IMG/VR virus record: IMGVR_UViG_3300033141_005072
Location: 1 to 35,842 of that record
Length of the DNA: 35,842 nucleotides
Reading direction: 5' to 3' (one strand)
From: a virus
Shown: positions 10,152-35,763 of the stretch, one piece after another
Numbering within the stretch: the first letter of the stretch is position 1
Layout: each line of letters starts with the position of its first letter
The notes under the pieces: generated by a model
What the model was told of the DNA's origin: nothing
What the model saw: the letters and a program-made list of their open reading frames with translations, nothing else
Database searches by the model: none
Translations under genes and position numbers: made by a program

Positions 10152-10162
10152 TATAAACCTCC

Positions 10163-10918: not shown

Positions 10919-11303
10919 AAAATTTCTCCTTCACAATTACTGTATCTAATTTTTTTAAAAAAAATCGTAATTTGCTCCATAATATAAAATCTTCCTTTAA
11001 ATATTTATACACTAACTTTGATATTGTGTATAACAATTCTTTGTTATATATTTTTTCTATTTTTTTATTGTTAAAAATAAACTTTTTCTTTAATTCTTGT
11101 TTTGGAATTCCTTCATATAAAGAAATAAAATCTAAAACACTTCCGCCTTGTTGACAGCCAAAACAATACCACGAATTAGTTTTTGGGTAAACTACTAAAC
11201 TCGGGTCAAGATCATCATGGAAAGGGCAAACACATTTATAGTAGGAGCCAATTTTTTTAAGCTGGATACCATATGATTTTATAACACTAACAATTGATTT
11301 CAT
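10860..11303 (-). CDS. Primase zinc-finger protein without catalytic domain
   Basis: A 147-residue protein whose first 65 residues are a DnaG-type CHC2 zinc-binding domain: CPFH (Cys26, His29) and CFGC (Cys47, Cys50) with PSLVVYPKTNSWYC between, then GGSVLDFISLYEG. Residues 66-147 are helical and Lys-rich with no TOPRIM motif. In primases this finger reads template and start sites. It overlaps the helicase stop (ATGA). Either the catalytic part is a distinct gene outside the window, or this protein recruits the host primase. Confidence 0.88.
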   Translation of the reverse strand: MKSIVSVIKSYGIQLKKIGSYYKCVCPFHDDLDPSLVVYPKTNSWYCFGCQQGGSVLDFISLYEGIPKQELKKKFIFNNKKIEKIYNKELLYTISKLVYKYLKEDFILWSKLRFFLKKLDTVIVKEKFYEEDVPKVINAFYKIVKGS

Positions 11304-12583
11304 ACTTCAGCCATTCTCATAATATCAAATACTGCATTAATTCTAAACCTGCCCTTTGCACCATCTCTATTTTTATTTATAACTGCGGTTACTTCTGCAA
11401 CTGGAGAAATTTCTAAAACTTCAGGTTCACTTATTTTTAATGAAAGTACAATGTCCGCATGATTTGTAATTAAAAATGATAAAGCAATATCATCTAATGA
11501 ATAAGTGGATTTACTTTTCATGCCCGATCTATTAACTTGTGCTGCAGTTAGCACAGGTACATTATATACTCTACCAATACCACGCAAAGATAAAGCAATA
11601 TCACTATAAGCTTCCCAAATACTATTAGTTCTTGATTCAGCTTTCATTAAGCCTAAATAATCTACAATCACTAAATCAAAAGTATATCGTGCTTTTAATT
11701 CTTGTAATTTTGCACTAATAAAAGTTCCCGTACAATTATTAGGAACATCTAAAATATAAAAAACACCTTTATAATTTTTTTGGCGTTCTAAAGACTCAAA
11801 ATATTTCTTCTCTTCTTCTGCAGACATGTTACCTGTTTTTATTTTATATGCAGATACGCCCGAGTCTAAAGCATCATATCTTCTTTCTAGTTGAACTTTT
11901 GGATTTTCTAAAGAAACGTATAAAACATTCTTTCCTAAAATAGAATGTATATAATGTCCCACATTTAACATAAAGGTGGATTTACCTTCTGACGTACCTG
12001 CAACAACTACCATCAATTCTGCAGGGTATAACCCATTAGTTAACTTATCAAAAGTCGGAAACCCTATTTTCAAACCAGGTTGTATTATACCTTCTTTAGC
12101 TTCTTTATATTTTTGTCTACGTATATCAACTGAATGATTTATTGCACCTTCTTTTACTTCCTTTGCTAAAACCGTTTCAATATTTAACAATTCACGTTTT
12201 AATTGCTTATATGCAAAATCAAAGTTTTGTTTTTCTAATAATGAAGCGCTTGAAGTAATTGCATTCTGTAATTTACGATTTATATATTCTTGTTTTATAC
12301 TATCAATTAAAAACTGGAAGTTTTTGGGAGTAGTATTAATTAATTCTTCATATAAAGAAATAAGAGAAATACGCTCTTCAAATGAAAGATTTGAAACTAA
12401 ATTTATAAATTGACTTCGATCAAAAACATCGCCATACTTTTTAAAAAAGTTTATGAGTAATTCAAAAAATAATTTCTCGATAAAATTCTCGGGCGGAAAA
12501 AAATCGGGGTTAATTCCTTCAATAATAACTGTAGACAAATTTTTTTTATCTAATAATAATGCACTTAAAAAATCTTTTATCAT
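11300..12583 (-). CDS. dnaB: Replicative DNA helicase (DnaB-like)
   Basis: A 427-residue helicase. Residues 1-140 form a small helical N-terminal domain. The RecA-like motor has Walker A GTSEGKST (196-203), Walker B LVIVDYLGL, VPVLTAAQVNRSG, a SFLITNHADIVLSL segment and KNRDGAKGRF near the end. It unwinds the parental duplex as a hexamer and would be loaded by the DnaC-like protein encoded just upstream. The Walker A deviates from the common GRPGMGKT. The start ATG overlaps the previous stop as ATGA. Confidence 0.95.
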   Translation of the reverse strand: MIKDFLSALLLDKKNLSTVIIEGINPDFFPPENFIEKLFFELLINFFKKYGDVFDRSQFINLVSNLSFEERISLISLYEELINTTPKNFQFLIDSIKQEYINRKLQNAITSSASLLEKQNFDFAYKQLKRELLNIETVLAKEVKEGAINHSVDIRRQKYKEAKEGIIQPGLKIGFPTFDKLTNGLYPAELMVVVAGTSEGKSTFMLNVGHYIHSILGKNVLYVSLENPKVQLERRYDALDSGVSAYKIKTGNMSAEEEKKYFESLERQKNYKGVFYILDVPNNCTGTFISAKLQELKARYTFDLVIVDYLGLMKAESRTNSIWEAYSDIALSLRGIGRVYNVPVLTAAQVNRSGMKSKSTYSLDDIALSFLITNHADIVLSLKISEPEVLEISPVAEVTAVINKNRDGAKGRFRINAVFDIMRMAEV

Positions 12584-12873
12584 TTAAAATGTTGTTCCGC
12601 TTCTATTAAACTCTCACTTAACACTATATTATATAATTCATAAATTTTTTCTTTAAGGTCTAATAAATGTTTATTTTGAGTCAAATAAACTTTATAACCC
12701 TGTGCAATAGCAAACGCAAGATAAAATACAGAATTGGCAGTTGATTCAGAATCTATATTTATTAAGTTTGATAAAGTAGTATATATTTTGTGTGCCTTTA
12801 CCGCAAGATCATCTGCCTGTTTAATATTCTTTTTACGTTTTCTACGTTTATTTTTTATTCGCTTTTTCGACAT
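12580..12873 (-). CDS. Small basic-tailed protein between loader and helicase genes, 97 aa
   Basis: The first 20 residues are almost all Lys/Arg (MSKKRIKNKRRKRKKNIKQA); the rest is helical (AFAIAQGYKVYLTQNKHLL) and ends EAEQHFK. I chose ATG 12873; a TTG at 12882 would add three residues. It overlaps the dnaC-like gene end by 26 bases and the helicase start by 4. The basic head suggests nucleic-acid contact. No family is recognised; a helicase or loader accessory is only a guess from position. Confidence 0.65.
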   Translation of the reverse strand: MSKKRIKNKRRKRKKNIKQADDLAVKAHKIYTTLSNLINIDSESTANSVFYLAFAIAQGYKVYLTQNKHLLDLKEKIYELYNIVLSESLIEAEQHFK

Positions 12874-13552
12874 CTTTAGCAATTACGGTCCGCCTATAAT
12901 CGGCAGTAGTAAAAGGAATATGTATAAAATGTTCATGCAATATTGAATAAAAACGGTCACCATAAATATCGCCAAGCTGTTCCAAAGATAAATTAGAAGT
13001 TAAAATAGTTGGTAATAAACTGTCTGTACGATACCTAATTAACTCATCTAAATTTTTCTCAGTAATACCAGAGCGGGGGCGGTATTCCCTTCCAATGTCA
13101 TCAATCATTAAAAAATCTACATTACTTAATTTCAAAAACAAATTATTTTTCTTATCTTCCCAATAATCAAATAATATTTCTAAACAATCCGATAATGTGG
13201 TAAAGTAACAAGAATATCCTTCTTTTAAAACTACATTAAGTATAGCTACTCCTAAAGCAGTTTTAGCTGTTCCCGGATTACCATATAATAACAAACCTAC
13301 GCCTTTATTATAATACTCATTTAAATTATTAACATATTTATTTAAGCGGCGTACGATTGGCTTACTTTGAGAATAGGTAATATCGTTTATTTTAAATTTA
13401 CGATACTTAGCAGGTAAGTTTGCATTTATTTTACGAACTGCAAAATTAAATAACGCAACACATTTGCACGATGGATCAGTGCCCCTACATTTACACTTAT
13501 CAATTGTTTTACTCTTTACTCTTAATAAATATTCTCTATCTCTAGATTTCAT
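12848..13552 (-). CDS. dnaC: DnaC-like AAA+ helicase loader
   Basis: A 234-residue AAA+ ATPase of the DnaC/IstB type. Walker A GNPGTAKT is at 91-98, Walker B FLMIDDIGRE near 147-156, ILTSNLS is sensor 1 and YRRT near the end fits sensor 2. The N-terminal part carries a CxC...CxC cluster (Cys20, 22, 29, 31), a probable zinc site for helicase binding. It would place the helicase encoded downstream onto ssDNA. The start overlaps the preceding gene stop as ATGA. Confidence 0.92.
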   Translation of the reverse strand: MKSRDREYLLRVKSKTIDKCKCRGTDPSCKCVALFNFAVRKINANLPAKYRKFKINDITYSQSKPIVRRLNKYVNNLNEYYNKGVGLLLYGNPGTAKTALGVAILNVVLKEGYSCYFTTLSDCLEILFDYWEDKKNNLFLKLSNVDFLMIDDIGREYRPRSGITEKNLDELIRYRTDSLLPTILTSNLSLEQLGDIYGDRFYSILHEHFIHIPFTTADYRRTVIAKDVEKANKK

Positions 13553-13704
13553 TTTTTGTTAGATTTAAAAAGGTGTTGCTCTATTCTAGATAATATACAA
13601 GCAATACATACCTGGGTATCCAATGGATTTGATATGTCCTGCCTAAAACATTTGGGCAAACCCATATAAGGACATTCTCTTACAACTTCTTCCTTTTTCT
13701 TCAT
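13549..13704 (-). CDS. Small cysteine-rich protein, 51 aa
   Basis: A 51-residue protein with four cysteines arranged CPYMGLPKC...CIAC, a likely zinc ribbon. ATG 13704 has a strong AAGGAGGAGGCC site; a longer frame to 13761 would run into queD and has no such site. It is coupled to the dnaC-like gene by ATGA. Function unknown; position suggests a replication accessory. Confidence 0.7.
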   Translation of the reverse strand: MKKKEEVVRECPYMGLPKCFRQDISNPLDTQVCIACILSRIEQHLFKSNKK

Positions 13705-13717
13705 TATGGCCTCCTCC

Positions 13718-14161
13718 TTATAACACTGTCCTAATTTCTGCATAAGATGTGGGTGTCTCATATAATTTAAGACTATACAAAGGAAGTTCTTTTTCTAACA
13801 ACTTCCATATCTCAACTATTAAATTTTCACAAGTCGGTAGTTTGCAAAACTCATTTAAATTTGAATGGTCTAATTTATCAATAATTTTAGAATTCACAAT
13901 TTTTTTTAACTTATTAAAATTAATAACCATACCATTTTTTGAATCGGGTGTTCCTAAAACGGTAACAACTAGTTTAAAACGGTGGCCGTGTAAATTATTA
14001 CATTTCCCAAAAGTATCCTTATTCCACTTTTGTGAAAAATCAGGATTTTCCAATTGATGGCTTGCATCAAATTCAAATTCTTTTGTAACTAAAATTCTCG
14101 GCTGATTGTAATCAAATATTAAGGGAGTACTTGGGTCAGAGCTAAACATAGAATCATACAT
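13718..14161 (-). CDS. queD: 6-carboxytetrahydropterin synthase (QueD)
   Basis: A 147-residue PTPS/QueD-family enzyme. Zinc ligands are His35 (FDASHQL), His58 and His60 (NLHGH), the catalytic Cys54 is in GKCNNLHGH, and MVINF, DKLDHSNLN, PTCENL and YETPTSYAE complete the pattern. It converts dihydroneopterin triphosphate to 6-carboxytetrahydropterin, the second step to preQ0. The gene lies between the metallophosphoesterase and dnaC-like genes with an AAGGAGG site, so the pathway genes are interspersed with replication genes, not in one block. Confidence 0.95.
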   Translation of the reverse strand: MYDSMFSSDPSTPLIFDYNQPRILVTKEFEFDASHQLENPDFSQKWNKDTFGKCNNLHGHRFKLVVTVLGTPDSKNGMVINFNKLKKIVNSKIIDKLDHSNLNEFCKLPTCENLIVEIWKLLEKELPLYSLKLYETPTSYAEIRTVL

Positions 14162-22761: not shown

Positions 22762-22995
22762 TTATTCATCTATAAAATTTACTTCATTAATTAATCCAAA
22801 AAATTCAATATTACTTATCCTCCTTGACATATAAATATAACGGTGGTCAGTTCCCACCATATCTTTTAACCATTTTTTATAATTTATAGTCATAGGCTCT
22901 ACTCTTTCATAACATAATAATAATCCTTCTTTTCCTTTGACAATAAAAGGGGTTTTATATTTCCTCTTTAAAATAATAACCGTAGTCTCAACCAT
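22762..22995 (-). CDS. Small accessory protein of the left array, 77 aa
   Basis: MVETTVIILKRKYKTPFIVKGKEGLLLCYERV carries the array head motif; the end RRISNIEFFGLINEVNFIDE carries the tail motif. ATG 22995 has GTAGGAGGTATTATTT upstream and overlaps the preceding stop by 8 bases. Between them sits an insertion with HRYIYMS. Unknown function. Confidence 0.7.
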   Translation of the reverse strand: MVETTVIILKRKYKTPFIVKGKEGLLLCYERVEPMTINYKKWLKDMVGTDHRYIYMSRRISNIEFFGLINEVNFIDE

Positions 22996-23278
22996 AAATA
23001 ATACCTCCTACATTATTCTCAACTAACATCTCTAACCTACTTACTTTTCGTAAACATAACCTTAAATTTGGGTTAAACTCATAACCATAAAGTGAAGTAA
23101 TCTTCCAATACTTATACTTAAATAATATTAAATTTCCTTCTTTTATATTATCAAAATCTTCTAAATTTTTAAAACGTGCGACTAATTCTATATTATTCAT
23201 ATAAACAGCCTTCTTTGGTTCAACCATCATCCCACCAGAAAATATATATCCGTCTTCTACAAAAAACATTTCTACCAT
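22988..23278 (-). CDS. Small accessory protein of the left array, 96 aa
   Basis: A 96-residue beta-rich protein (FKNLEDFDNIKEGNLILFKYKYWKITS) ending RLCLRKVSRLEMLVENNVGGIIYG; KVSRLEMLV is the array tail motif. The ATG overlaps the previous stop (ATGGTAG). The N-terminal part differs from the K-x-P-F members. Confidence 0.6.
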   Translation of the reverse strand: MVEMFFVEDGYIFSGGMMVEPKKAVYMNNIELVARFKNLEDFDNIKEGNLILFKYKYWKITSLYGYEFNPNLRLCLRKVSRLEMLVENNVGGIIYG

Positions 23279-23499
23279 GTAACTGTCTCCATCTTTTCCA
23301 TATAAGTTAATGCTTCTAATTTATCAAGTGGTTCTAAATAATAAGTATACTGTATGTCATTTAAACTTTGTCTTTCTCTTACAAGATAATATTCCCCCGA
23401 ACGGTTACACACAAAAGGTACTTCTTTATAAACAGAAGTGATTAAAGCTTTTACTGTTCTACTTCCTTCAAAAGCATAATCACCTATTATTTTAATCAT
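23272..23499 (-). CDS. Small accessory protein of the left array, 75 aa
   Basis: MIKIIGDYAFEGSRTVKALI then TSVYKEVPFVCNRSGEYYLVRE (head motif) and YYLEPLDKLEALTYMEKMETV (tail motif). ATG 23499 overlaps the preceding stop as ATGA with GGGAG upstream; a longer form to 23517 is less likely. Clear paralog of 23897-24106, 24103-24318 and 24315-24548. Confidence 0.7.
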   Translation of the reverse strand: MIKIIGDYAFEGSRTVKALITSVYKEVPFVCNRSGEYYLVRERQSLNDIQYTYYLEPLDKLEALTYMEKMETVTW

Positions 23500-23786
23500 A
23501 CAATTTTCAACTCCCACACTTTCTTACCAAATATATCAAGTTTACTACCAACTCTTCTAATATATAATTCCTTAACAGTTTTATCTTTTATGTCTCTAGT
23601 AATTGACAAAACTTCAAAAAATACCCCCTTATATAAAACCATATCTTTTAACTTTATAGCTGTAACATGTGCCTGCACAATTATATTCCAAATCAAATCA
23701 ATGGGCCAAGTTTCTAATTCTGATGCAAAACGAATATACTCATTTATTCCTACAACAGTACTTTTATTTAACAAAATTTGTTCCAT
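23496..23786 (-). CDS. Small accessory protein of the left array, 96 aa
   Basis: A 96-residue protein (EYIRFASELETWPIDLIWNI, DMVLYKGVFFEVLSITRDI) ending KELYIRRVGSKLDIFGKKVWELKIV with the tail motif R-x-x-K-L-D-I. No head K-x-P-F motif. Function unknown. Confidence 0.6.
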   Translation of the reverse strand: MEQILLNKSTVVGINEYIRFASELETWPIDLIWNIIVQAHVTAIKLKDMVLYKGVFFEVLSITRDIKDKTVKELYIRRVGSKLDIFGKKVWELKIV

Positions 23787-23890
23787 TTCTTATTACCCAA
23801 GAAGGAATTCCTTCATCTACTAATTTATCTATTAAATCAAAAAATACTCCCAAAATCTACCATTACATACAAAAAAGGTAATATATATAC
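23787..23890 (-). pseudogene. Frameshifted remnant of a left-array paralog
   Basis: Leftward from about 23890 one frame gives MKGIYITFFVCNGRFWEYF, comparable to the VPFVCNRSGEYYLV region of 23272-23499. A shift to another frame then gives VFFDLIDKLVDEGIPSWVI, comparable to the P-x-D-K-L-E tail. Stops interrupt both frames. This fits a broken copy between two intact genes. Confidence 0.4.
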
Positions 23891-23896
23891 CCTTCA

Positions 23897-24106
23897 TCAA
23901 TCCTCTTCATAAATATCCATTATACACATATAAACCAATAATTCCAATTTATCTATCGGTTTAACTAAATATTTAAAATACTCTTCTTTAGAGGTAGTGA
24001 CCACTTCTTCTAAAGCAATATAATACTGCCCAAAATAATCTTTATATAAAAAAGGTGTTTTCAACCTTCTTTTAAGATAAATTGTATTAAATACCAAATT
24101 TTTCAT
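23897..24106 (-). CDS. Small accessory protein of the left array, 69 aa
   Basis: MKNLVFNTIYLKRRLKTPF, YKDYFGQYYIALEE, then YFKYLVKPIDKLELLVYM: a standard array member. ATG 24106 overlaps the preceding stop (GAATGA); the upstream junction GATTATATAGAATGAAAAAT is shared with the next paralog upstream. Confidence 0.72.
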   Translation of the reverse strand: MKNLVFNTIYLKRRLKTPFLYKDYFGQYYIALEEVVTTSKEEYFKYLVKPIDKLELLVYMCIMDIYEED

Positions 24107-24318
24107 TCTATATAATCTCCAAAACTCCAATAAACAATATTCATTTTTCCTATATAAGACAATAATTCTATCTTACTAATAAGCCTAATACTATATTTGT
24201 AATAACCACTATTAACAGAAAATTTCATATTAACTATATAATAATTATCATACCAATCTATATATACAAAAGGAATCTTATGTCTTTTTTTAAGATAAAT
24301 CGCAGTAAAATTTTTCAT
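24103..24318 (-). CDS. Small accessory protein of the left array, 71 aa
   Basis: MKNFTAIYLKKRHKIPFVY, YDNYYIVNMKF, YYKYSIRLISKIELLSYI: closely related to its neighbours on both sides. ATG 24318 overlaps the previous stop as ATGA, so the nine-residue longer frame is not needed. C-terminal extension VYWSFGDYIE is shared in kind with 24315-24548. Confidence 0.72.
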   Translation of the reverse strand: MKNFTAIYLKKRHKIPFVYIDWYDNYYIVNMKFSVNSGYYKYSIRLISKIELLSYIGKMNIVYWSFGDYIE

Positions 24319-24548
24319 TCTATATAATCCCAAAGACCTTGACAAACAATCTTCATTTTTTTAATATAAACCAATAATTCTATTTTACTAATAGGTCTAA
24401 TAGAATATTTATAATCAGTACCATATGTATATTTAAAAAAAGGTATCTTTTTATTTACCAAATAATAATTATTATAATAATCTTTATATATAAAAGGAAC
24501 CTTATGACTTTTTTTAAGATAAATTATGTTAAATACTAGATCATTCAT
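24315..24548 (-). CDS. Small accessory protein of the left array, 77 aa
   Basis: MNDLVFNIIYLKKSHKVPF, YKDYYNNYYLVNKKI, YKYSIRPISKIELLVYIKKM, GLWDYIE. This is the clearest example of the family: a beta-rich head, a variable loop, and a helical-looking tail. The start chosen overlaps the upstream gene by 8 bases. Confidence 0.72.
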   Translation of the reverse strand: MNDLVFNIIYLKKSHKVPFIYKDYYNNYYLVNKKIPFFKYTYGTDYKYSIRPISKIELLVYIKKMKIVCQGLWDYIE

Positions 24549-24771
24549 TTTCAAATACACAACTTTCCATTATTAACAAACTTTCTTTATCAATAGTTTC
24601 CATTTTATTTTTATAAACCATAAATTCTAAATTGTCTATTTTTTTAAGAAAATATTCCCAATTGCCTGCCATTGTTTTCTCCTTATTATAACATATATAA
24701 TAATAATTGTCACTATAGTATAAAAAAAATGGGACTTTTATTCCCTTTTTTGAAATTATTCCTACTGTCAT
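24541..24771 (-). CDS. First gene of the left block, array protein, 76 aa
   Basis: MTVGIISKKGIKVPFFLYYSDNYYYICYNKE, WEYFLKKIDNLEFMVYKNKMETI: array head and tail motifs both present. It is the promoter-proximal gene of the whole leftward block. No good ribosome site precedes ATG 24771; the leader is A/T-rich, so it could be translated from a leaderless or weak start. Confidence 0.7.
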   Translation of the reverse strand: MTVGIISKKGIKVPFFLYYSDNYYYICYNKEKTMAGNWEYFLKKIDNLEFMVYKNKMETIDKESLLIMESCVFENE

Positions 24772-24921
24772 ATATTTATTTACACGACGTTTGTTCTACC
24801 TACATACCTAACTAAGGTTTGACAACCCCCGTGTATTTTCCAGAATTTATATATTTGGTAAACAGATAGTAGATTATATTAGAAAATGCATTATTGTTGC
24901 TTATAGGGGAGTATAGGCCGT

Positions 24922-24958
24922 TTAAAGAAGTAATATATGTTATATATTACTTCTTTAA
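24922..24958. repeat. 37-base palindrome, copy 1
   Basis: A 17-base-pair inverted repeat (left arm TTAAAGAAGTAATATAT) around a three-base centre. Two further copies lie at 34120-34156 and 34394-34430. Copies 1 and 2 differ only at the centre. Confidence 0.95.
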
Positions 24959-24963
24959 GGTGT

Positions 24964-24978
24964 TAGTTATATAAGATA
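24964..24978 (+). repeat. 15-base direct repeat TAGTTATATAAGATA (also 25053-25067)
   Basis: TAGTTATATAAGATA occurs at 24964-24978 and again at 25053-25067, 89 bases apart, in the C-poor part of the intergenic region. It could be a protein-binding site; no function is shown. Confidence 0.85.
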
Positions 24979-25150
24979 GAAGTAGAGGTGTAAGATGGAG
25001 CGATAGATATTATAGGATAGGTAGTAAATGTAAGTTTTTAAGGGATAGAAGGTAGTTATATAAGATATATAAATGCAAGGGTAGTTATTTGTTAAGATAA
25101 GTGTAGCGTTAGTTAGTTATTTAGCTATATAGTATAGGTGTAAAGGTGAA

Positions 25151-25177
25151 TTGATACGTAGACCACCGGTATATAAT
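25151..25177 (+). promoter_or_regulatory. Candidate sigma-A-type promoter for the right block
   Basis: TTGATA (25151-25156) and TATAAT (25172-25177) are separated by 15 bases, shorter than the ideal 17; a TAATAT two bases further on would give 17. It lies about 55 bases before the first plus-strand gene. Plausible, not proven. Confidence 0.45.
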
Positions 25178-25233
25178 ATCAACAAAAATAATTCTTATTT
25201 CCGCATTAATAATAAGTTAAAGGGGGTGAAATT

Positions 25234-25563
25234 ATGAGAGAGTACAAAATCATTTGGAAAGGAGTGGAGGGGGTAGTAGCTGTGCCTGATCAGGACATAG
25301 CACATTTCGAGAAAATTTTAAATTACATCAACAAGGTGAATGACGACGTAAAGATATTGGAAAAGGGTGAAGGGCCTTCGAAAGAGCGAGACTGGTATCT
25401 CCTTGAGGAAGTATCAGTCTCAGGACGCCTACGGGCAACCATAGGCGTAGAAGGCACAGGCAACAAGTTAATAGCAGCAATAGCTAGATGGTGCAACTGC
25501 GTTGATGTGCCGTACACCGTCTGGCTCTTTTTTAAACAAATTGCAGGAATAAGTGGTATGTAA
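25234..25563 (+). CDS. First gene of the right block, 109 aa, high-GC
   Basis: A 109-residue protein (MREYKIIWKGVEGVVAVPDQ, VSVSGRLRATIGVEGTGNK, IARWCNCVDVPYTVWLFFKQ). ATG 25234 has an AAAGGGGGTGAAATT site. Its coding sequence is about 50% GC over 25381-25500, far above the neighbours, suggesting separate origin. No domain recognised. As the first, presumably earliest, gene of the operon it is a candidate host-takeover or anti-defence protein, by position only. The opposite-strand frame over the same bases has no ribosome site and is a shadow. Confidence 0.75.
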   Translation: MREYKIIWKGVEGVVAVPDQDIAHFEKILNYINKVNDDVKILEKGEGPSKERDWYLLEEVSVSGRLRATIGVEGTGNKLIAAIARWCNCVDVPYTVWLFFKQIAGISGM

Positions 25564-25769: not shown

Positions 25770-25974
25770 AGAACAAGTTTTAGAAATGTTTAGAAAAGAT
25801 CCTATAAGTATGGTGGAAGATAAAAAGTATACTCTACCAAATACTCCAGCAAGGGATCTAGAAAACTATTTAGATCATTTGGTAGAACAAATTCAATTGT
25901 CTTACAAAGAAATAATTATAAGAGTTTTGGTGGATGGAGTTAGACCAAGAGATGCTGTTAAGGAGGTATTATGA
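25762..25974 (+). CDS. Small helical protein, 70 aa (cassette copy 1)
   Basis: A 70-residue helical protein (LPNTPARDLENYLDHLVEQIQLSYKEIIIRVLVDGVRPRDAVKEVL). It is a diverged paralog of 27334-27549 (KPGTKAREVEVELDRTIRGI, NYKSIITAIIEDELEVKEAL). AAAGGAGGCAGAA precedes the ATG. Function unknown. Confidence 0.75.
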   Translation: MTKEQVLEMFRKDPISMVEDKKYTLPNTPARDLENYLDHLVEQIQLSYKEIIIRVLVDGVRPRDAVKEVL

Positions 25975-26351
25975 AAGTATACTTTACTAAAATTGAAAAG
26001 AAGGGTACCCGAATCTGTTATTATTGTGGAGATAATATTTATTTTCAGGAAACACCAGTAGTGATATTTAATAGATATATGTCAAAGAAAAGATATTTCT
26101 GCCCTGAATGTGCTTTAGAATTATTACAAAAAAATATATTTTATCTAAGAACAAATATTGAACCTACACTAGACTGGAAGTGGAAATGGATTACAGACCT
26201 AGATAGTGGAGAAGTAGAAATATTTAAAACTAGAAGGAAAGCGCTAGAGGCTGCATATAAAACAAATAAGTTCTTATTTACAAATAAAATAAAACTCAAT
26301 AAACTTGTTGAGAAAATAAAAGCAGGTGAATATTTAAAGGAGGTGTTATGA
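25971..26351 (+). CDS. Zinc-finger protein, 126 aa
   Basis: RICYYCGDNIYF and RYFCPECALELLQK form a four-Cys zinc site in the first 50 residues; the rest is basic and helical. AAGGAGGTATT precedes the ATG, which overlaps the previous gene by 4 bases. The CxxC...YFCPECALE layout resembles 30674-31180 and 31735-32229. Function unknown. Confidence 0.75.
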   Translation: MKVYFTKIEKKGTRICYYCGDNIYFQETPVVIFNRYMSKKRYFCPECALELLQKNIFYLRTNIEPTLDWKWKWITDLDSGEVEIFKTRRKALEAAYKTNKFLFTNKIKLNKLVEKIKAGEYLKEVL

Positions 26352-26623
26352 AAATTAAATGTAAGATTTGTGGTAAAGAAAAAGGAGCATCTAAAGACAG
26401 ATACCAAAAGCTATTAACTAAATATGGATCTGAGAAGGAACTATTAGAAAATTATATTTGTAGAGACTGTAGAAAGGATCCAAAAGGTTTAGTTATTAAA
26501 GCTAAAGATGGAGAGGTTTATGTTCCAACTGCTGATGGGGTTACAGCTTTTATTACTACGGAACGGACTGTAGATGAGGTTATAGAAAACGTGGATAAGG
26601 CTTTGGATGAGTTAACAAAATAA
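26348..26623 (+). CDS. Zinc-ribbon protein, 91 aa (cassette copy 1)
   Basis: CKICGKEKGASKDRYQKLLTKYGSEKELLENYICRDCRKD is a zinc ribbon with an inserted helix; 27546-27836 has the same pattern (CSKCGETKGFSKERYLKNV, NYVCRKCRN). The C-terminal half, rich in Val/Asp, differs. AAAGGAGGTGTT precedes the ATG. A small adaptor or DNA-binding protein is possible. Confidence 0.75.
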   Translation: MKIKCKICGKEKGASKDRYQKLLTKYGSEKELLENYICRDCRKDPKGLVIKAKDGEVYVPTADGVTAFITTERTVDEVIENVDKALDELTK

Positions 26624-27333: not shown

Positions 27334-27549
27334 ATGAAAGATTACTTTAAAAGTCCTGGAGAGATAATTGGTAACGTAAAAGACTTGTACATAACGAAAC
27401 CTGGAACTAAAGCAAGAGAAGTAGAGGTGGAATTGGATCGAACTATCAGAGGGATCCAGGAAAACTACAAAAGTATAATAACAGCGATAATCGAAGACGA
27501 ACTTGAAGTGAAAGAAGCTTTAATTAAATATCTAGGAGGTGAATTATGA
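27334..27549 (+). CDS. Small helical protein, 71 aa (cassette copy 2)
   Basis: Paralog of 25762-25974 by aligned pattern (P-G/N-T-x-A-R-x-x-E, Y-K-x-I-I, V-K-E-x-L). AAGGAGGGACA precedes ATG 27334. It is followed by the paralog of the zinc-ribbon gene, so two genes were duplicated together. Confidence 0.75.
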   Translation: MKDYFKSPGEIIGNVKDLYITKPGTKAREVEVELDRTIRGIQENYKSIITAIIEDELEVKEALIKYLGGEL

Positions 27550-27836
27550 GTTTCAAAGTGGTTTGTAGTAAATGCGGAGAAACGAAAGGGTTCAGTAAGG
27601 AAAGATATTTAAAGAATGTTCGTAACTACGGAAGTGAAGAGAACTTACAGAACAACTATGTCTGTAGAAAATGTAGGAACCAAGATTATACAGCAGGGCC
27701 TACTCCAAAGTTACAGTCCCAGATGGACCTATTAGTATTAGCTTCCAAAGTTTTACCTAATATAACTAATACGAAACTGAAGAAAAGATTAGAAAAACTT
27801 ATTAAGGAAGTAGAAAGGGATATTGTTAAGAAATAA
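27546..27836 (+). CDS. Zinc-ribbon protein, 96 aa (cassette copy 2)
   Basis: Shares the zinc-ribbon-plus-helix N-terminus with 26348-26623 (Y-G-S-E-E-N-L then C-R-K-C). The C-terminal half is a helical Leu/Lys-rich segment (DLLVLASKVLPNITNTKLKK). ATG overlaps the preceding stop region; AGGAGGTGAATT upstream. Confidence 0.75.
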   Translation: MSFKVVCSKCGETKGFSKERYLKNVRNYGSEENLQNNYVCRKCRNQDYTAGPTPKLQSQMDLLVLASKVLPNITNTKLKKRLEKLIKEVERDIVKK

Positions 27837-27880: not shown

Positions 27881-29113
27881 ATGGCAATGAACGAGATCGA
27901 GAAAGCAGTAATTAGGATGATAAGAAATGGTAAGACTTTCTTTGCTTCGTTAATTATCCAAATGGTTAGAGTTAAAGATGAAAGTCTTGATGCACCAATG
28001 GGAGTTACGGTCTCAGATGGGAGAATATATTTATATTACAACCCTAACCTAATGGGTAAATGGAAGCCAAAAGAAATAGAAGCGGTTTTGGAACATGAAA
28101 TCGAACATGTTGTCTTCCTCCACATATTAAGAGCAAGGAAGAGGTATCCATTAGGTTGGAATATTGCAACAGATATTGCTATCAACCAACATATAAATAA
28201 CTTACCAAAAGGTTGCTTGTTCCCAGAAATGTTTAACCTTCCAAGAAACAAGATAGCAGAATTTTATTATGATAAGTTACCAAAAAAGAAAGGTGGAGGA
28301 CAGGGTCAAGGAAAAGGACAGGGTCAGGGTCAAGGTCAAGGAAAAGGACAGGGTCAAGGTCAAGGTCAGGGTAAGAATGGTGGAGGTGGTGCTGGTGGAG
28401 GTAAAAGTAATAAACCAGATATAAAACCAATAGATGACCATACCGTTTGGAAAAGATGCAAAGGCACCAAATTAGATAAAGAAGTAGTTAAACAAGCAGT
28501 AAAGGAAAGTTATAACAATTCAAGAGACAAGGGTAACATACCTGGGAGGTTTATAGAACAAATAGAAAAGTTACTTGCACCGCCTACGATACCTTGGGGT
28601 AAAATATTTAAACAATATGTGGGGACAAAAATAAAGGCAGGTTTTAAATATAGTTGGAAAAGACCTAGTAGGAGATTTGGAGAAAGGATGAAAGGTATAG
28701 TTCCTAGTAGAACAATAAAGATCGCTGTTGCAATAGATACAAGTGGAAGTATATCTCCTAAAGACTTTAGAGAATTCCTAAGTGAACTAAACGGGATACT
28801 AAAGACATATAAAAACAAGACCAAGGTTCTTATATGTGATGCTGAATTACAAAAAGTATATGATTACAAACCATATCAACAACTTGATGTGAAGTTTGAG
28901 GGAAGAGGTGGAACAGATTTCAGGCCAGTATTCGCTTGGTTACAAAAAGAATGGAAGCCAGATTTGTTAATATACTTTACAGATACTGAAGGAACATTTC
29001 CGTCTCCATTTCCAACTTATCCAGTCCTGTGGATACTACCAAGTGATTATGATGGTCTTGATGTACCATTTGGAACCAAAGTAAAAATAAACCATGCTAA
29101 GGAGGAAGAATGA
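27881..29113 (+). CDS. Putative metallopeptidase with von Willebrand A domain
   Basis: A 410-residue two-domain protein of the DUF2201/VWA-like type. Residues 1-135 contain HEIEH (72-76), a zinc-peptidase HExxH signature, with NIATDIAIN (94-102) as a likely third-ligand region. Residues 137-175 are a Gly/Gln/Lys low-complexity linker. Residues 279-410 are a VWA domain with metal-site residues D286, S288, S290 (DTSGS), T345 (GGTD) and D368 (FTDTEG). It is followed by a MoxR-type ATPase, the usual partner of VWA proteins. Such pairs act as chaperone-like machines that remodel or load metal into target proteins. Whether it cuts proteins is unknown. ATG 27881 follows AGGAGGTGATGTAA. Confidence 0.85.
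   Translation: MAMNEIEKAVIRMIRNGKTFFASLIIQMVRVKDESLDAPMGVTVSDGRIYLYYNPNLMGKWKPKEIEAVLEHEIEHVVFLHILRARKRYPLGWNIATDIAINQHINNLPKGCLFPEMFNLPRNKIAEFYYDKLPKKKGGGQGQGKGQGQGQGQGKGQGQGQGQGKNGGGGAGGGKSNKPDIKPIDDHTVWKRCKGTKLDKEVVKQAVKESYNNSRDKGNIPGRFIEQIEKLLAPPTIPWGKIFKQYVGTKIKAGFKYSWKRPSRRFGERMKGIVPSRTIKIAVAIDTSGSISPKDFREFLSELNGILKTYKNKTKVLICDAELQKVYDYKPYQQLDVKFEGRGGTDFRPVFAWLQKEWKPDLLIYFTDTEGTFPSPFPTYPVLWILPSDYDGLDVPFGTKVKINHAKEEE
28299..28372 (+). repeat. Short tandem repeat coding the Gly-Gln linker
   Basis: GGTCAA/GGTCAG and GGACAG hexamers repeat across about 74 bases and encode QGQGKGQGQGQGQGKGQG-type sequence. It is likely to vary in length by slippage. Confidence 0.85.
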
Positions 29114-29478
29114 AAAAAACAATATTTCAAGTTTATAAAACAAATTACCAAGGACAACTTGAAGACCATTACTTCCTAGGTTTAATAAAAGATGGTAGAA
29201 ACATCTGGGGAATAGGTTATACAAAAACAATAAAAGAATTAATGTATCAAATTAAATATAAAAGAAAAGAATGTTTGTTAGTAGATTATATAGAAAGCGA
29301 TGTAGTACCAATCAATACAGTAGAGTTGATTACAATGCTTCCAAAGAAAAGAACAATTAAGAAGATACAAAAAGAAGCAGAAATAGATTATGCAAACATA
29401 CAAATAAATAAACCGAAAATAAAAGAGGAAATAGAAGAAAGAGAAAAATATGTTAACAGCTGGGGACTGAAAAAATAA
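29110..29478 (+). CDS. Hypothetical protein between VWA and MoxR genes, 122 aa
   Basis: A 122-residue basic protein: MKKTIFQVYKTNYQGQLEDH, FLGLIKDGRNIWGIGYTKTI, then a Lys/Glu-rich helical second half. The F-x-x-x-x-x-D-G-R-N-I-W-G piece resembles the IIFFKD...WG start of the tandem paralogs at 34442-35763. AAGGAGGAAGA precedes the ATG, four bases inside the VWA gene. Possibly an adaptor for the MoxR/VWA pair; inference from position only. Confidence 0.7.
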   Translation: MKKTIFQVYKTNYQGQLEDHYFLGLIKDGRNIWGIGYTKTIKELMYQIKYKRKECLLVDYIESDVVPINTVELITMLPKKRTIKKIQKEAEIDYANIQINKPKIKEEIEEREKYVNSWGLKK

Positions 29479-29494
29479 ATAGGAGGTGAATGTT

Positions 29495-30547
29495 ATGAAG
29501 TTGAAAAGTATCAAACAAAGAATTATTGAGATGTCCAAGATGCCGCCTGACGCAAGGGTTCCAATTCTTATGATTGGTGGGATGGGAATTGGAAAGAGTC
29601 AGATTGTTTATCAAGCAGCAGAAGAGATAGCAAAAGAAAAAGATTACAACGTTATCGAGATAAGACTTGCACAGATGGAACCAGGAGACATCATAGGTAT
29701 ACCAAGAGAAAGAGATGGTAGAACGATATGGGCAGCACCATCTTGGTGGCCAACAGATGGCTCGGGAATAATATTCTTCGATGAACTTAACAGAGCACCA
29801 ATCGATGTAAGGCAAGCTATCTTTCAGGTACTAACTATGAGAAGGATACATACTCATATTTTACCTCCCGATTATCAAATAGTAGTCGCTATCAATCCAA
29901 GTGATAGCATCTATCAGGTAGAGGAACTTGATCCAGCAATGTATACAAGGTTCTGGATAGCAGAAGTAGAACCAGAGTTGGAAGAGTGGGTTAAGTATGC
30001 TTTTAGTAAAGACTTTCATAAAGGAGTTATACAGTTTGTGATAACTCATAAAGAGTTATTTTATAAACCAAAACCAAAAGGAGCTTGTCCAACTCCAAGA
30101 AGTTACGAATATCTTAGCAACTTTATGAAACATACTCAACTACCAATAAAGAGTGATGATTTCTACCTTGCAGTAACAGGTTACATAGGAACAGAAGCAG
30201 GGGCAGCATTTATAAAGTTTATGGATGCGGGTTTTGTTAAACCAGTTACAGCAGAGGAAGTTCTTAATAAATATAGTGATCCAAAGATACAAAAGAAACT
30301 TAAGAACCAAGAAAAAGATGAGAACAGAGATAAGATGTATGCAACAATGTTAGATGTAGCTGCTTACCTTGAGAAGAACAAACTCAGTAATGAACAATTA
30401 AAGAACTTTACCAATTGGCTTAAGAATACATTACCTGAAACTGTTGCAGCCTTATGTGAAAAGGTACCAAACAATATCTTAATAAAACTTGCTGAAGATA
30501 AGGACCTTGTTGAGGTAGTAAAGAACATACTCAACGAATCAAATTAA
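29495..30547 (+). CDS. MoxR-type AAA+ ATPase
   Basis: A 350-residue AAA+ ATPase. Walker A GGMGIGKS (28-35), Walker B IIFFDELNRAP (92-102), sensor 1 VVAINPSD, and arginine finger in MYTRF follow the MoxR order; the segment after about 190 is a helical lid. ATG 29495 has AGGAGGTGAATGTT; a GTG nine bases earlier is less likely. It is expected to form a hexamer working with the VWA/peptidase protein two genes upstream. It ends right before a strong terminator, so the module closes this transcription unit. Confidence 0.92.
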   Translation: MKLKSIKQRIIEMSKMPPDARVPILMIGGMGIGKSQIVYQAAEEIAKEKDYNVIEIRLAQMEPGDIIGIPRERDGRTIWAAPSWWPTDGSGIIFFDELNRAPIDVRQAIFQVLTMRRIHTHILPPDYQIVVAINPSDSIYQVEELDPAMYTRFWIAEVEPELEEWVKYAFSKDFHKGVIQFVITHKELFYKPKPKGACPTPRSYEYLSNFMKHTQLPIKSDDFYLAVTGYIGTEAGAAFIKFMDAGFVKPVTAEEVLNKYSDPKIQKKLKNQEKDENRDKMYATMLDVAAYLEKNKLSNEQLKNFTNWLKNTLPETVAALCEKVPNNILIKLAEDKDLVEVVKNILNESN

Positions 30548-30551
30548 CCAA

Positions 30552-30592
30552 ATAGGGGAGGACATAGTTATCCTCCCCTATAATTTTCTTTT
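30552..30592 (+). terminator. Rho-independent terminator
   Basis: An 11-base-pair perfect stem ATAGGGGAGGA / TCCTCCCCTAT with an eight-base loop is followed by AATTTTCTTTT. It lies five bases after the MoxR gene stop. Confidence 0.92.
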
Positions 30593-30673: not shown

Positions 30674-31180
30674 ATGCAGGTAAGGGTTGTTACACTCAAA
30701 ACTAAAAGAAAACATAAATACAAATGTAATAGTTGTAAGAAAGAAGCTGATGCACAAAAAGAAGTAACGACAGTATGGTACAACTATAGTAAAAGATATC
30801 TATGTAAAAAATGTTCAATTGAAACTTTAAATAATATAATAACTACATTCAAAGAAAAGATAAAAGATATCGCAAAAGCACATTGGTTTTCTTATATTAA
30901 GTCATATGTTGATTGGAATGCGAGAGCAATCAATGACGCTTCAACTGGAGAGTTTCTTGGGTACTTCTTTGCTATACATGGTAATCTTATAGGAACCAAA
31001 GATGAAAAATATATAGAAAAACTTGTTACAAAACATAAAACAGAAAAAATAAAGTATTACAACGAAGAGATACAGAAACTAAAAGCATTGGTCGCTAAAA
31101 TAGAAATGGAGCTTGTACCAGTAGGAAATATAAAAGACTTAAGATATGATAACAAATATTATACTACCTTTGATAATTAA
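30674..31180 (+). CDS. Zinc-ribbon/coiled-coil protein, 168 aa
   Basis: YKCNSCKKEADAQKEVTTVWYNYSKRYLCKKC (about 15-46) is a zinc ribbon; the rest is helical with a coiled coil near 130-160 (YYNEEIQKLKALVAKIEMELVP). The same layout, ending AKI-x-x-x-LVP-x-G, recurs in 31735-32229, so the two are paralogs flanking the structured RNA. AAGGAGGGAATTT precedes the ATG. Function unknown. Confidence 0.78.
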   Translation: MQVRVVTLKTKRKHKYKCNSCKKEADAQKEVTTVWYNYSKRYLCKKCSIETLNNIITTFKEKIKDIAKAHWFSYIKSYVDWNARAINDASTGEFLGYFFAIHGNLIGTKDEKYIEKLVTKHKTEKIKYYNEEIQKLKALVAKIEMELVPVGNIKDLRYDNKYYTTFDN

Positions 31181-31222
31181 AAAAGTATTGAAAAATAAAA
31201 CTAAAAAAATTTCTTAAAAAAA

Positions 31223-31509
31223 AGATATACAATTAAGCAACTTTCAGTGTATCTAATTTTCAGAGATATTTTTTTACTTGTCTCTAATAACTAACAAAAA
31301 AAAATTATAAGAATAAATAACACTGTTTACGATGTAATGTAAACCAGTGCAACAACCTGAAAGGTTGGTGAAAAGCAGTAACTAAAAAAGTGTTTAATCG
31401 GATTCTACTTCGTCCACTTTAAACAAGAAGTGATAGACATCAAAAGTCACCTTTAAAAAGGTTCCTTTCGACATCAGAATATTGTCCTCCCCAAAGGGAA
31501 TAGGACAAT
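31223..31509 (+). ncRNA. Candidate structured non-coding RNA / long leader
   Basis: The 31181-31540 stretch has no gene but a chain of hairpins: AGATATAC/GTGTATCT (31223-31254), AGAGA/TCTCT (31262-31285), CACTGTTTAC/GTAAACCAGTG with one bulged base (31321-31349), CAACCT/AGGTTG with a GAA loop (31353-31367), GTC-CACTT/AAGTG-GAC with a bulge (31412-31438), AAAG-TC-ACCTTT/AAAGGT-TC-CTTT with an internal loop (31443-31468), and ATTGTCCT/AGGACAAT with an inner CCC/GGG (31481-31509). I do not recognise a known RNA class. It ends about 20 bases before the ribosome site of the next gene, so it could be a free RNA or a regulatory leader. Confidence 0.55.
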
Positions 31510-31540
31510 TATTATAGTGTTTTATAAAGGAGGGAGAAAA

Positions 31541-31738
31541 ATGAAGATGGAACGAATAATATTTTTAGATTTTGTAAAAGGTAAATGTCCTTTCCTTAAA
31601 AAAAATAAAAAGTGTACTTTAGTACCAAACGAAAAAGGGACTTGTAGTTATACAAGAGGAAAAAGTTTATTATTTAGAGGTTTTGGTTGTGTTGGTATGA
31701 TATTATTTAGATTAAAATATAAAGGAGGTGTAAAATGA
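31541..31738 (+). CDS. Small cysteine-containing protein, 65 aa
   Basis: MKMERIIFLDFVKGKCPFLKKNKKC, EKGTCSYTRGKS, FRGFGCVGMI: four cysteines spaced over 35 residues, likely binding a metal. ATG 31541 follows AAAGGAGGGAGAAAA; a GTG start at 31517 would add eight residues encoded by the ribosome site itself and is unlikely. It directly follows the structured RNA region. Confidence 0.75.
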   Translation: MKMERIIFLDFVKGKCPFLKKNKKCTLVPNEKGTCSYTRGKSLLFRGFGCVGMILFRLKYKGGVK

Positions 31739-32229
31739 GTTATTTAGTTTATCAATCTACACGAAACCATGTTGTGTATTGTTCACAATGTAAAATCTCT
31801 TTCAATACTAAAGACAATATAACCGCATACTATTATAGTTATAATAGTTCAGATCCTTCAGAATACTTTTGCACAAATTGTTTTAAAGATAAAATAACAT
31901 CAAGAATAAAAAGGTTACAAGAAAGTATCAATAGACTTAAAAATGTTTTTAGTTATAGGAAACAAATTATTAAAAAGGTTATAGAAGATACTAAAGAAAA
32001 AATATATTGTCTCCCTGTTTATTATATAAGAGATGTAATATTTTACAAAGATGTTAAAACTGTACTTAAAATAATACAAGCAAATAAACAAGTAGAAATA
32101 GAAAGATTAGAAAAAAGAAAACTTGAACTGGAAGCAATAATTGCCAAGATAGATTTGAACTTGGTACCAAAAGGTATCAGAAAACATTTATTAAAAGACG
32201 GAAACAATATTGTAAATATAAATATATAA
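31735..32229 (+). CDS. Zinc-ribbon/coiled-coil protein, 164 aa
   Basis: YCSQCKISF and YFCTNCFKDK give the zinc ribbon; KQVEIERLEKRKLELEAIIA is a coiled coil near residue 130, followed by KIDLNLVPKGI. It is a diverged paralog of 30674-31180. AAAGGAGGTGTAAA precedes the ATG, overlapping the previous gene. Function unknown. Confidence 0.78.
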   Translation: MSYLVYQSTRNHVVYCSQCKISFNTKDNITAYYYSYNSSDPSEYFCTNCFKDKITSRIKRLQESINRLKNVFSYRKQIIKKVIEDTKEKIYCLPVYYIRDVIFYKDVKTVLKIIQANKQVEIERLEKRKLELEAIIAKIDLNLVPKGIRKHLLKDGNNIVNINI

Positions 32230-33510: not shown

Positions 33511-34131
33511 ATGTCAAAAAGAATGAAGTATTCAGGTATGAATAAGTTGTTAACTAAATCATATAGGGAAGAATGGATAAGAAAACTGGAACCAAAAGAC
33601 ATAGAAATAAAAATTGAGACTGAACATTATTATTGTGGAGGCGAGTTATGTGAGGAAGATTTACAAATATTTATAAAAACACCAACAGATAATTATTTCG
33701 TAGATAGATATTATGAAAAATTTCCAAAGAATAAAATTAAATTCCAGGACTGGATCAACCAAATGGTACCCCCAAAACAACAACAAGCAATAAATAAATT
33801 TAACGAAACCAAAGACATAAATATATTAAAACCATATGAAAAATTATACAAACAAATAAAGCACGTCCTAAAAAAGAAGTATACAAAGAACCCATTAACT
33901 GAAAAGGGCAAAGAAGAAGTAGCAAAACTAATAATAAAATTCCAAAAACTAAAAAAGATACTAGAAAGATACCAAAACATATTTAATAATACTATAATAG
34001 AAATATACCCAAAAGTTAAAGCTATAGACGCATATTTTGCAGGATGTAAAACATCAAAAGAATATTTAGAAGGAGTAAAAAAAGAACTTAATTATTATAT
34101 AAATAGTCTAACAGACAGGTTAAAGAAGTAA
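33511..34131 (+). CDS. Basic hypothetical protein, 206 aa
   Basis: A 206-residue Lys-rich protein. EHYYCGGELCEEDLQIFIKTP near 38-58 and a long helical part (VAKLIIKFQKLKKILERYQN) are visible. Its last residues RLKK and stop are encoded by the left arm of palindrome copy 2. GTAGGAGGTAGCT precedes the ATG. No family recognised. Confidence 0.72.
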   Translation: MSKRMKYSGMNKLLTKSYREEWIRKLEPKDIEIKIETEHYYCGGELCEEDLQIFIKTPTDNYFVDRYYEKFPKNKIKFQDWINQMVPPKQQQAINKFNETKDINILKPYEKLYKQIKHVLKKKYTKNPLTEKGKEEVAKLIIKFQKLKKILERYQNIFNNTIIEIYPKVKAIDAYFAGCKTSKEYLEGVKKELNYYINSLTDRLKK

Positions 34132-34156
34132 TATATATTATATATTACTTCTTTAA
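34120..34156. repeat. 37-base palindrome, copy 2
   Basis: A perfect 18-base-pair inverted repeat around one central base (left arm TTAAAGAAGTAATATATA). The left arm carries the last codons and the TAA of the 206-residue gene; the right arm leads straight into AAAGGAGG of the next gene. Confidence 0.95.
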
Positions 34157-34168
34157 AAGGAGGTATAA

Positions 34169-34405
34169 ATGAGTAAATATATAAATTTAGAAATACCTTG
34201 CGAAGGTTGTGGTGGCTATTTAGAAAATGGGGATGTAGTTTACTGTCAAAATTGTTATAATGAAATGGAAGAAGAATTAGAAAAAGCAAGAGATATAATA
34301 CGAGACCTTGAAAATGAAATAGAAAACCTTAAAGAAGAAATAGAAGAGCTACGAAAATCGGGCATCCAAAAGGTTGCAGAACTATCAGAAAGATTAAAAA
34401 AGTAA
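34169..34405 (+). CDS. Zinc-ribbon coiled-coil protein, 78 aa
   Basis: CEGCGGYLENGDVVYCQNC (10-28) is a zinc ribbon; residues 31-75 are a strong coiled coil (EELEKARDIIRDLENEIENL). It ends ERLKK, encoded by palindrome copy 3. Likely a dimer or trimer with N-terminal zinc heads. Function unknown. Confidence 0.78.
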   Translation: MSKYINLEIPCEGCGGYLENGDVVYCQNCYNEMEEELEKARDIIRDLENEIENLKEEIEELRKSGIQKVAELSERLKK

Positions 34406-34430
34406 TATATATTATATATTACTTTTTTAA
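34394..34430. repeat. 37-base palindrome, copy 3, with compensating change
   Basis: The same 18-base-pair inverted repeat, but the left arm reads TTAAAAAAGTAATATATA and the right arm has the matching T, so the G-C pair of copies 1 and 2 has become A-T on both sides. Pairing is conserved while sequence changed. Confidence 0.95.
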
Positions 34431-34441
34431 CAGGGGGCCAA

Positions 34442-34780
34442 ATGCAAATAGCTAAAATCAAATTTTCAGGAGTAGATGAACATTTTATAATTATAACAAA
34501 AATAAGAAACTTATATTGGGGTTTTGGTACATCAACATTTTATTATGGTAAACTAAAAGATCCAAAAAACTTTTTCGCTCCTTTTATTTTTGGAGGAGAA
34601 ATTAGCAGTCAGCGAAAAGAAGACCTTGAGTTTTTACCAAACAATTACTTACACATGTATCTATTAAAAGCACCAGTTAAACTTAAAGAATATATAGATA
34701 TTGTAAAAAAACATAAGAACGAAATAATAGAAATGATACATAAGTTTGTAGAAGTAAGTTCATTTACAATTAAGGAGTAA
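34442..34780 (+). CDS. Right-array paralog 1, 112 aa
   Basis: MQIAKIKFSGVDEHFIIITK, NLYWGFGTSTFYYGKLKDPKNFFAPF, ending VKLKEYIDIVKKHKNEIIEMI. Shares with the next three genes a beta start, a WG motif, a K-D-P/E-P-x-K-x-F-x-x-P block and a helical KKHK-x-E-I-I end. CAGGGGGCCAA precedes the ATG. Function unknown. Confidence 0.75.
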   Translation: MQIAKIKFSGVDEHFIIITKIRNLYWGFGTSTFYYGKLKDPKNFFAPFIFGGEISSQRKEDLEFLPNNYLHMYLLKAPVKLKEYIDIVKKHKNEIIEMIHKFVEVSSFTIKE

Positions 34781-34785
34781 ACCAA

Positions 34786-35088
34786 ATGGTTAAGTTAATT
34801 AAACCTATTATTGTTAAAACTGGATTACTCAAATATGATTTTATATTGTTTTTTAGAGATGGTAACATCTATTGGGGATTTCATTTAGACCTTCTTAAAG
34901 ATGAACCAAATAAAAAGTTTTATAAACCTGCTGCAGAGTTTGGTAACTTATTATTTGTAGACTATATGCCCAGTAAATTAAATGCAATAGATACAATTAA
35001 AATATTTGGTAGCCCTGAGTTTGAAAAACATTATAATTATATTAAAAAACATAAAAAGGAAATAATAAGAATATTAAATAGATATTAA
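34786..35088 (+). CDS. Right-array paralog 2, 100 aa
   Basis: MVKLIKPIIVKTGLLKYDFI, FFRDGNIYWGF, LLKDEPNKKFYKPA, HYNYIKKHKKEIIRIL. The leader GGAGTAAACCAAATGGTTAA is shared with 35104. A clear member of the family. Confidence 0.78.
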   Translation: MVKLIKPIIVKTGLLKYDFILFFRDGNIYWGFHLDLLKDEPNKKFYKPAAEFGNLLFVDYMPSKLNAIDTIKIFGSPEFEKHYNYIKKHKKEIIRILNRY

Positions 35089-35103
35089 AATGGAGTAAAC
35101 CAA

Positions 35104-35400
35104 ATGGTTAAAATAATAAAAAGTTATTTTGGTGAAAACTATTTTATAATATTTTTTAAAGATAAATATAAAAGACTATGGGGAATATATGACTACGACC
35201 TTTCCAAGGAACCTTCTAAAGATTTTTATAAACCAATAAGTAATGGCGGTTGTTTTTGTTTTACTACTACCCCACATATTTTCCCAACTAAAAACTTTTA
35301 TATATTTATATTATTTAAAAACCCTAACTTACAAAAGCATATTGACTATGTAAACGAACATAAAGAAGAGATATTAGAAATGTTAAATAATATAAAGTAG
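35104..35400 (+). CDS. Right-array paralog 3, 98 aa
   Basis: MVKIIKSYFGENYFIIFFKD, RLWGIYDYDL, SKEPSKDFYKPI, HIDYVNEHKEEILEML. Same layout as paralogs 2 and 4 with a more divergent middle. Function unknown. Confidence 0.78.
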   Translation: MVKIIKSYFGENYFIIFFKDKYKRLWGIYDYDLSKEPSKDFYKPISNGGCFCFTTTPHIFPTKNFYIFILFKNPNLQKHIDYVNEHKEEILEMLNNIK

Positions 35401-35409
35401 GAGGTATAA

Positions 35410-35763
35410 ATGGTTAAATTAATCAAACCTTTTATTGATAGTAACTTTGTAATATTTTTTAAAAGCCCATACGCATATTGGGGTACCACCATCAGACTTG
35501 TAAGACGAGATGAACCTACTAAATTATTTTATACTCCTGCAATAAAAAATGGTAAATTATTTTACCTTCATTACTTAACAGCAGCAAGTTGGATGAGTAA
35601 TATGGATAAAATAAAGTTCTTTAGTAGTACCAATTTCAAAAAACATTATAATTATATCAAAAAACATAAAGAGGAAATAATAAAAAAGATAAAGGAAATA
35701 GAAAAAACATTATATACTACAATCGTAGTTACAGATTGGTTAACTTGCAAATTAATTAAATAA
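35410..35763 (+). CDS. Right-array paralog 4, 117 aa
   Basis: MVKLIKPFIDSNFVIFFKSP, YAYWGTTIRLVRRDEPTKLFYTPA, HYNYIKKHKEEIIKKI, with a 20-residue extra tail (TLYTTIVVTDWLTCKLIK). TAGGAGGTATAA precedes the ATG. The remaining 79 bases to the window end hold no gene I can support. Confidence 0.76.
   Translation: MVKLIKPFIDSNFVIFFKSPYAYWGTTIRLVRRDEPTKLFYTPAIKNGKLFYLHYLTAASWMSNMDKIKFFSSTNFKKHYNYIKKHKEEIIKKIKEIEKTLYTTIVVTDWLTCKLIK

Follow-up and report, generated by a model that had tools for sequence, protein, structure and literature searches.

A candidate minus-strand structured RNA in the gap between two paralogous zinc-ribbon genes of a phage

Background

Does the 360-base gap between two paralogous zinc-ribbon-like genes of a phage hold a dedicated structured RNA and, if so, on which strand would that RNA lie? 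The question concerns positions 31181-31540 of the 35,842-base IMG/VR virus record IMGVR_UViG_3300033141_005072, which was analyzed over its full length and is called the window below. An initial annotation of this DNA had described the gap as a likely new structured RNA made of seven hairpins. We examined the folding of the gap on both strands, its relation to known RNA families and signals, its relatives and its coding potential, and weighed the explanations that these data allow.

Results and discussion

Setting of the gap

The genes of the window form two divergent arms, a leftward one that starts at 24.8 kb and a rightward one that starts at 25.2 kb, extending to the left and right ends, respectively. 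The gap belongs to the right arm and extends from the stop codon of zrA (31180) to the next plus-strand start codon (31541). The zrA ORF (30674-31180, plus) encodes a 168-aa zinc-ribbon-like protein with a CxxC...CxxC pattern and no Pfam family above the cut-off. Downstream of the gap lie cys (31541-31738, plus), an ORF for a 65-aa Cys-containing protein, and zrB (31735-32229, plus), whose start overlaps the cys stop. Proteins zrA and zrB are 26% identical (E 4e-11) and have the CxxC...CxxC pattern in common, so the flanking genes are paralogs and the gene right after the proposed RNA encodes a small Cys protein, both as initially annotated. A weak match to phrog_8344 (E 2.3e-4) was found for zrB, while its predicted structure, a fair model, gave no significant fold match. 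For cys, searches returned no family match, no phage match and no relatives, and the structure model was not usable. Three more small zinc-ribbon-like proteins are encoded at 25971-26351, 26348-26623 and 27546-27836, and their CxxC...CxxC patterns align with those of zrA and zrB. Genes for a DUF2201 VWA-metallopeptidase and a MoxR-type ATPase, a pair that recurs in large phages, occupy 27881-30547; after them comes a strong hairpin (30552-30581).

Several features were observed elsewhere in the window. On its minus strand (640-3060 and 9528-14161), the left arm carries a uracil-DNA-glycosylase/family A DNA polymerase fusion along with QueC, radical-SAM QueE-like and PTPS QueD-like genes; these Que-type genes suggest 7-deazaguanine chemistry. 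Small paralogous proteins with no assigned function make up two tandem families, seen as repeated DNA (D1-D5, D8), at 22988-24771 (minus) and 34442-35763 (plus). The 37-base near-perfect palindrome TTAAAGAAGTAATATATrTTATATATTACTTCTTTAA is present in three copies (24910-24965, 34108-34163 and 34382-34437). One copy overlaps the 3' end of gene 33511-34131 and another that of gene 34169-34405, both of which end in RLKK, and the third lies in the divergent gap; the palindrome may be a shared operator, a terminator-like element or a mobile repeat.

Folding of the gap compared with chance

Folding of the whole gap gave -74.2 kcal/mol on the plus strand (z -4.0) and -84.6 kcal/mol on the minus strand (z -5.1), and on neither strand did any of 100 shuffles fold as well. 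Among 300-nt segments tiled over the whole record, the gap was one of the best few on both strands. At the 120-nt scale it was less exceptional and not unique in the window, unlike the density far above background that was initially described. The clustering of hairpins is genuine and exceeds chance, but it is not the only case in the window. In the 300-nt scan, the lowest z came from the minus-strand fold of 24901-25200, in the 462-base gap between the divergent arms (24772-25233), a possible origin or promoter region with long purine-rich stretches on the plus strand and one copy of the palindrome. The ORF at 25234-25563 has a G+C content markedly above the rest (about 0.5 in parts) and very stable inner hairpins; it has no Pfam match and is possibly a recent acquisition.

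These comparisons bear on the view that no dedicated RNA is present and that A/T-rich intergenic hairpins with other roles (transcript ends, mRNA stability, DNA-level dyads), plus some chance pairing, account for the gap. Isolated dyads of equal strength in other gaps of the window favor this view, as does the predominance on the plus strand of strand-neutral hairpins (H3, H4 and H7, see below). The summed stability of the five best non-overlapping 50-nt hairpins in the gap, which none of 300 shuffles reached on either strand, argues against it.

Two elements and the strand of the core

When the halves of the gap (31200-31310 and 31314-31516) were folded apart, the gap seemed to hold two elements, one on the plus strand at 31202-31276 and a minus-biased core at 31314-31516. 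The left half gave a z of -3.10 on the plus strand versus -0.66 on the minus strand. Its element (31202-31276, plus), which follows the zrA stop codon, is a long A/U-rich hairpin containing H1 and is perhaps part of the tail, or 3' end, of the zrA transcript. Both H1 (31223-31254; -6.5 kcal/mol plus vs -2.0 minus) and H2 (31262-31285; -6.3 vs -1.9 kcal/mol) are hairpins of the plus strand only.

The core folded to -60.5 kcal/mol on the minus strand (z -5.69, 0 of 200 shuffles as good) and to -46.4 kcal/mol on the plus strand (z -3.46). In a larger set of 1000 shuffles its energy was never reached on the minus strand and was reached twice on the plus strand, a further point against explaining the gap without a dedicated RNA. 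The strand asymmetry is moderate, with 20 of 1000 dinucleotide-keeping shuffles showing one as large (p about 0.02). The greater stability of the core on the minus strand comes from seven G-U pairs and one tandem G-A loop that turn into mismatches on the plus strand; the G-U pairs of H6 and H5', at least seven, exist on the minus strand only. Hairpins H3, H4 and H7 fold almost equally well on either strand and so say nothing about orientation, and H1 and H2 favor the plus strand but sit in the left half.

Read 5' to 3' on the minus strand, the proposed RNA consists of H7, H6, a small hairpin, H5', H4 and H3. The first, H7 (31481-31509; AUUGUCC-UAU-UCCC-UUUG-GGGA-GGACAAU), is assigned to the minus strand and has nearly equal stability on both (-13.5 kcal/mol minus, -12.7 plus). 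H6 (31436-31475, minus) has the sequence GAUGUCGAAAG-GA-ACCUU-UUUA-AAGGU-GA-CUUUUGAUGUC, in which 11 pairs (three of them G-U) are followed by a 2x2 tandem G-A internal loop, five pairs and a UUUA loop. At -19.1 kcal/mol on the minus strand versus -7.9 on the plus strand, it ranks sixth in stability among the 50-nt hairpins of the window, and none of 300 shuffles reached it. The small hairpin CACUU/AAGUG (31415-31432, minus) is part of the minimum-energy fold. The two-part stem of H5' (31370-31414, minus), GAAGUAG/CUGCUUU and GAUUAAA/UUUAGUU with four G-U pairs, is present in both the minimum-energy and the centroid minus folds and was not significant when folded alone; it differs from the plus-strand form H5 (about 31391-31425), which is weak on both strands. 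The remaining two are strand-neutral: H4 (31353-31367) is a CAACCU/AGGUUG hairpin, and H3 (31320-31350) has a stem of 10-11 pairs with one bulge (-9.3 kcal/mol plus, -10.3 minus).

All seven hairpins of the initial annotation (H1-H7) therefore exist, but the series included the weak H5 and joined elements of differing strandedness, and the symmetrical internal loop noted there is that of H6, which is stable on the minus strand. The proposal of a structured RNA keeps the support of the folding statistics, of the lack of coding and of the lack of a known family, but the plus strand that it assumed is doubtful for the core and probably wrong. On the RNA partner of the neighboring zinc-ribbon proteins that was also suggested, the data speak neither for nor against.

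Known RNA classes and signals

A search with Rfam 15 (4227 models, both strands), in which the gathering threshold was the criterion for a family, gave no matches in the window, and relaxing the cut-off to E 5 added just two chance matches, far below threshold. By this test the candidate belongs to no described RNA family. At the gap, none of the Rfam riboswitch families and not the c4 model (RF01695) matched. ARAGORN found no tRNA or tmRNA genes in the window, and the tandem direct repeats of about 35-45 nt of a type III toxin-antitoxin RNA are absent from the gap.

The best intrinsic terminator candidates in the gap rank 27-39 of the window with scores well below zero; there was no plus-strand terminator next to cys and no good terminator on the minus strand. 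On the minus strand a U-rich stretch follows the H3 stem and makes it weakly terminator-like, but with a score of only rank 39 of the window H3 is not supported as a clear minus terminator. That H3 and H7 lack well-scoring terminator tails also counts against hairpins serving other roles as the whole explanation. Promoter-like sites occur at shuffle level with no convincing minus promoter among them, and a TATAAT at 31509-31514 on the minus strand is without a good -35 box.

Search for relatives

Scans of IMG/VR with peptides (MoxR, zrA, a PolA fragment, and zrA plus zrB) found no close relatives, and scans with two DNA patterns found none. Profile scans with MoxR found distant relatives only, the best being L006, with a MoxR 43% identical; another, L086, on a 210-kb contig, has a PolA at 43% and a MoxR at 37%. 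Judged by the length of the latter contig, the window probably represents part of a large phage genome. In these distant relatives, the zinc-ribbon genes and the RNA were not detectable. A scan of bacterial genomes likewise returned distant MoxR relatives only, and a BLAST search of phages and plasmids with the gap gave nothing or only chance matches of 28-32 bases. In 399 genomes from the phylum of one distant locus, we found two chance DNA matches of 27-29 bases and no match to the protein profile, results that carry little weight, as the host may belong elsewhere. A single-sequence covariance model of H7 and H6 recovered only its own source and, overlapping it on the opposite strand, a weak match.

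The phage thus appears nearly alone in the collections searched, a set that may omit records very near the window, so that the absence of relatives is not proof. As these searches gave no homologs from which covariation could be assessed, the new structured RNA is still a candidate. The lack of homologs also fits the view that the gap holds no dedicated RNA, which we nevertheless consider somewhat unlikely given the shuffle results above.

The cys ribosome site and a plus-strand leader

The main alternative is a plus-strand structured leader or intercistronic region of no known riboswitch class that hides the cys ribosome site and would thereby reduce or control the translation of cys and of zrB, which is coupled to it. 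In the minimum-energy plus-strand fold of the gap, UCCUUU (about 31463-31468) pairs with AAAGGA (31526-31531) in the ribosome-site pairing at 31463-31535. The predicted unpaired probability of the cys ribosome site is 0.04. Among 25 plus-strand genes this value is the lowest with 150 nt of upstream sequence and the second lowest with 350 nt, although a single such value in a set of this size is weak evidence. The plus-strand z of the whole gap, the plus-specific H1 and H2 and the plus orientation of all neighbors also agree with a leader. Against it, the core clearly folds better on the minus strand and no riboswitch or leader family matched; the riboswitch-like leader initially suggested keeps the low accessibility of the cys site as weak support. 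We regard such a leader as somewhat unlikely. It is compatible with an antisense RNA, which could open or close it.

Coding potential

The longest ORF wholly inside 31181-31540 has 26 aa, and in none of the six frames do codon scores come up to gene level, in agreement with the initial description of the gap as having no coding frame. The minus-strand ORF at 31394-31474 (26 aa, with GGGGAGGA 11 nt upstream) had no matches and no coding signal and was rejected as a gene. A decayed third zinc-ribbon copy or other dead gene between zrA and zrB, for which the position of the gap between two paralogs and a weak 19-residue match to zrA (E 0.14 in a 410-base search) could be cited, was rejected and is close to refuted, since the protein similarity is not significant and coding signal is absent in every frame.

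A putative antisense RNA

The reading that we prefer, with a probability of about 0.38, is that the core (31314-31516) is a minus-strand structured non-coding RNA of the phage, antisense to the zrA-cys leader, that tunes the cys-zrB mRNA. Such an RNA would be about 200-240 nt long, starting near or just upstream of 31516 and extending leftward to about 31290. By strand and position it would be antisense to the zrA-cys intercistronic leader, with which it would most likely pair loop to loop or, if its start were far enough upstream, over the cys ribosome site; this pairing would tune the cys-zrB mRNA. Transcription of the core, the start and end of the RNA and its antisense action are what we infer from a core that is enriched in hairpins and biased to the minus strand, has no coding potential and matches no known family. 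Every surrounding gene lies on the plus strand, which counts against a minus-strand RNA, and a favorable folding energy by itself gives weak evidence that an element is functional. The chance that the gap holds a dedicated RNA element on either strand is about two in three.

The ribosome sites of zrA and cys contain an identical 12-mer, ATAAAGGAGGGA, so a minus-strand RNA would have complementarity to each of them if its start lay at 31535 or beyond. A new class of antisense RNA, in which a 5' tail, UCCCUCCUUUAU, complementary to both ribosome sites would let one RNA control zrA and cys in cis and in trans, is a highly speculative extension that we think improbable.

Comparison with known phage RNAs

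The c4 RNA is a structured phage antisense RNA that controls a nearby operon. It is listed, as Rfam RF01695, in PMC2864571. Our candidate is likewise phage-borne and structured and may work like c4, with an antisense role that is here putative; it differs in being a single sequence that has no family, left RF01695 unmatched and comes from a putative transcript. The manA and wcaG motifs of cyanophages are structured RNAs beside phage genes that were found by comparative genomics with several members each (PMC2864571). They are an earlier instance of structured RNA motifs carried by phage genomes, whereas the candidate matches neither and is known from one sequence. For a leader, the T4 gene 32 mRNA offers a phage example of a structured leader that hides a ribosome site. 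The gap resembles it in the predicted sequestration of the next gene's ribosome site and differs in that there is no sequence or family link and that the opposite strand gives the core its better fold.

Conclusions

The gap offers a well-defined candidate rather than a demonstrated RNA. If the RNA is real, it illustrates how G-U pairs present on one strand only can set right the orientation of a candidate found by eye. The catalog of structured RNAs from large phages is poor and, if real, this one would be an antisense-oriented RNA outside all described families, located in a zinc-ribbon gene cluster.
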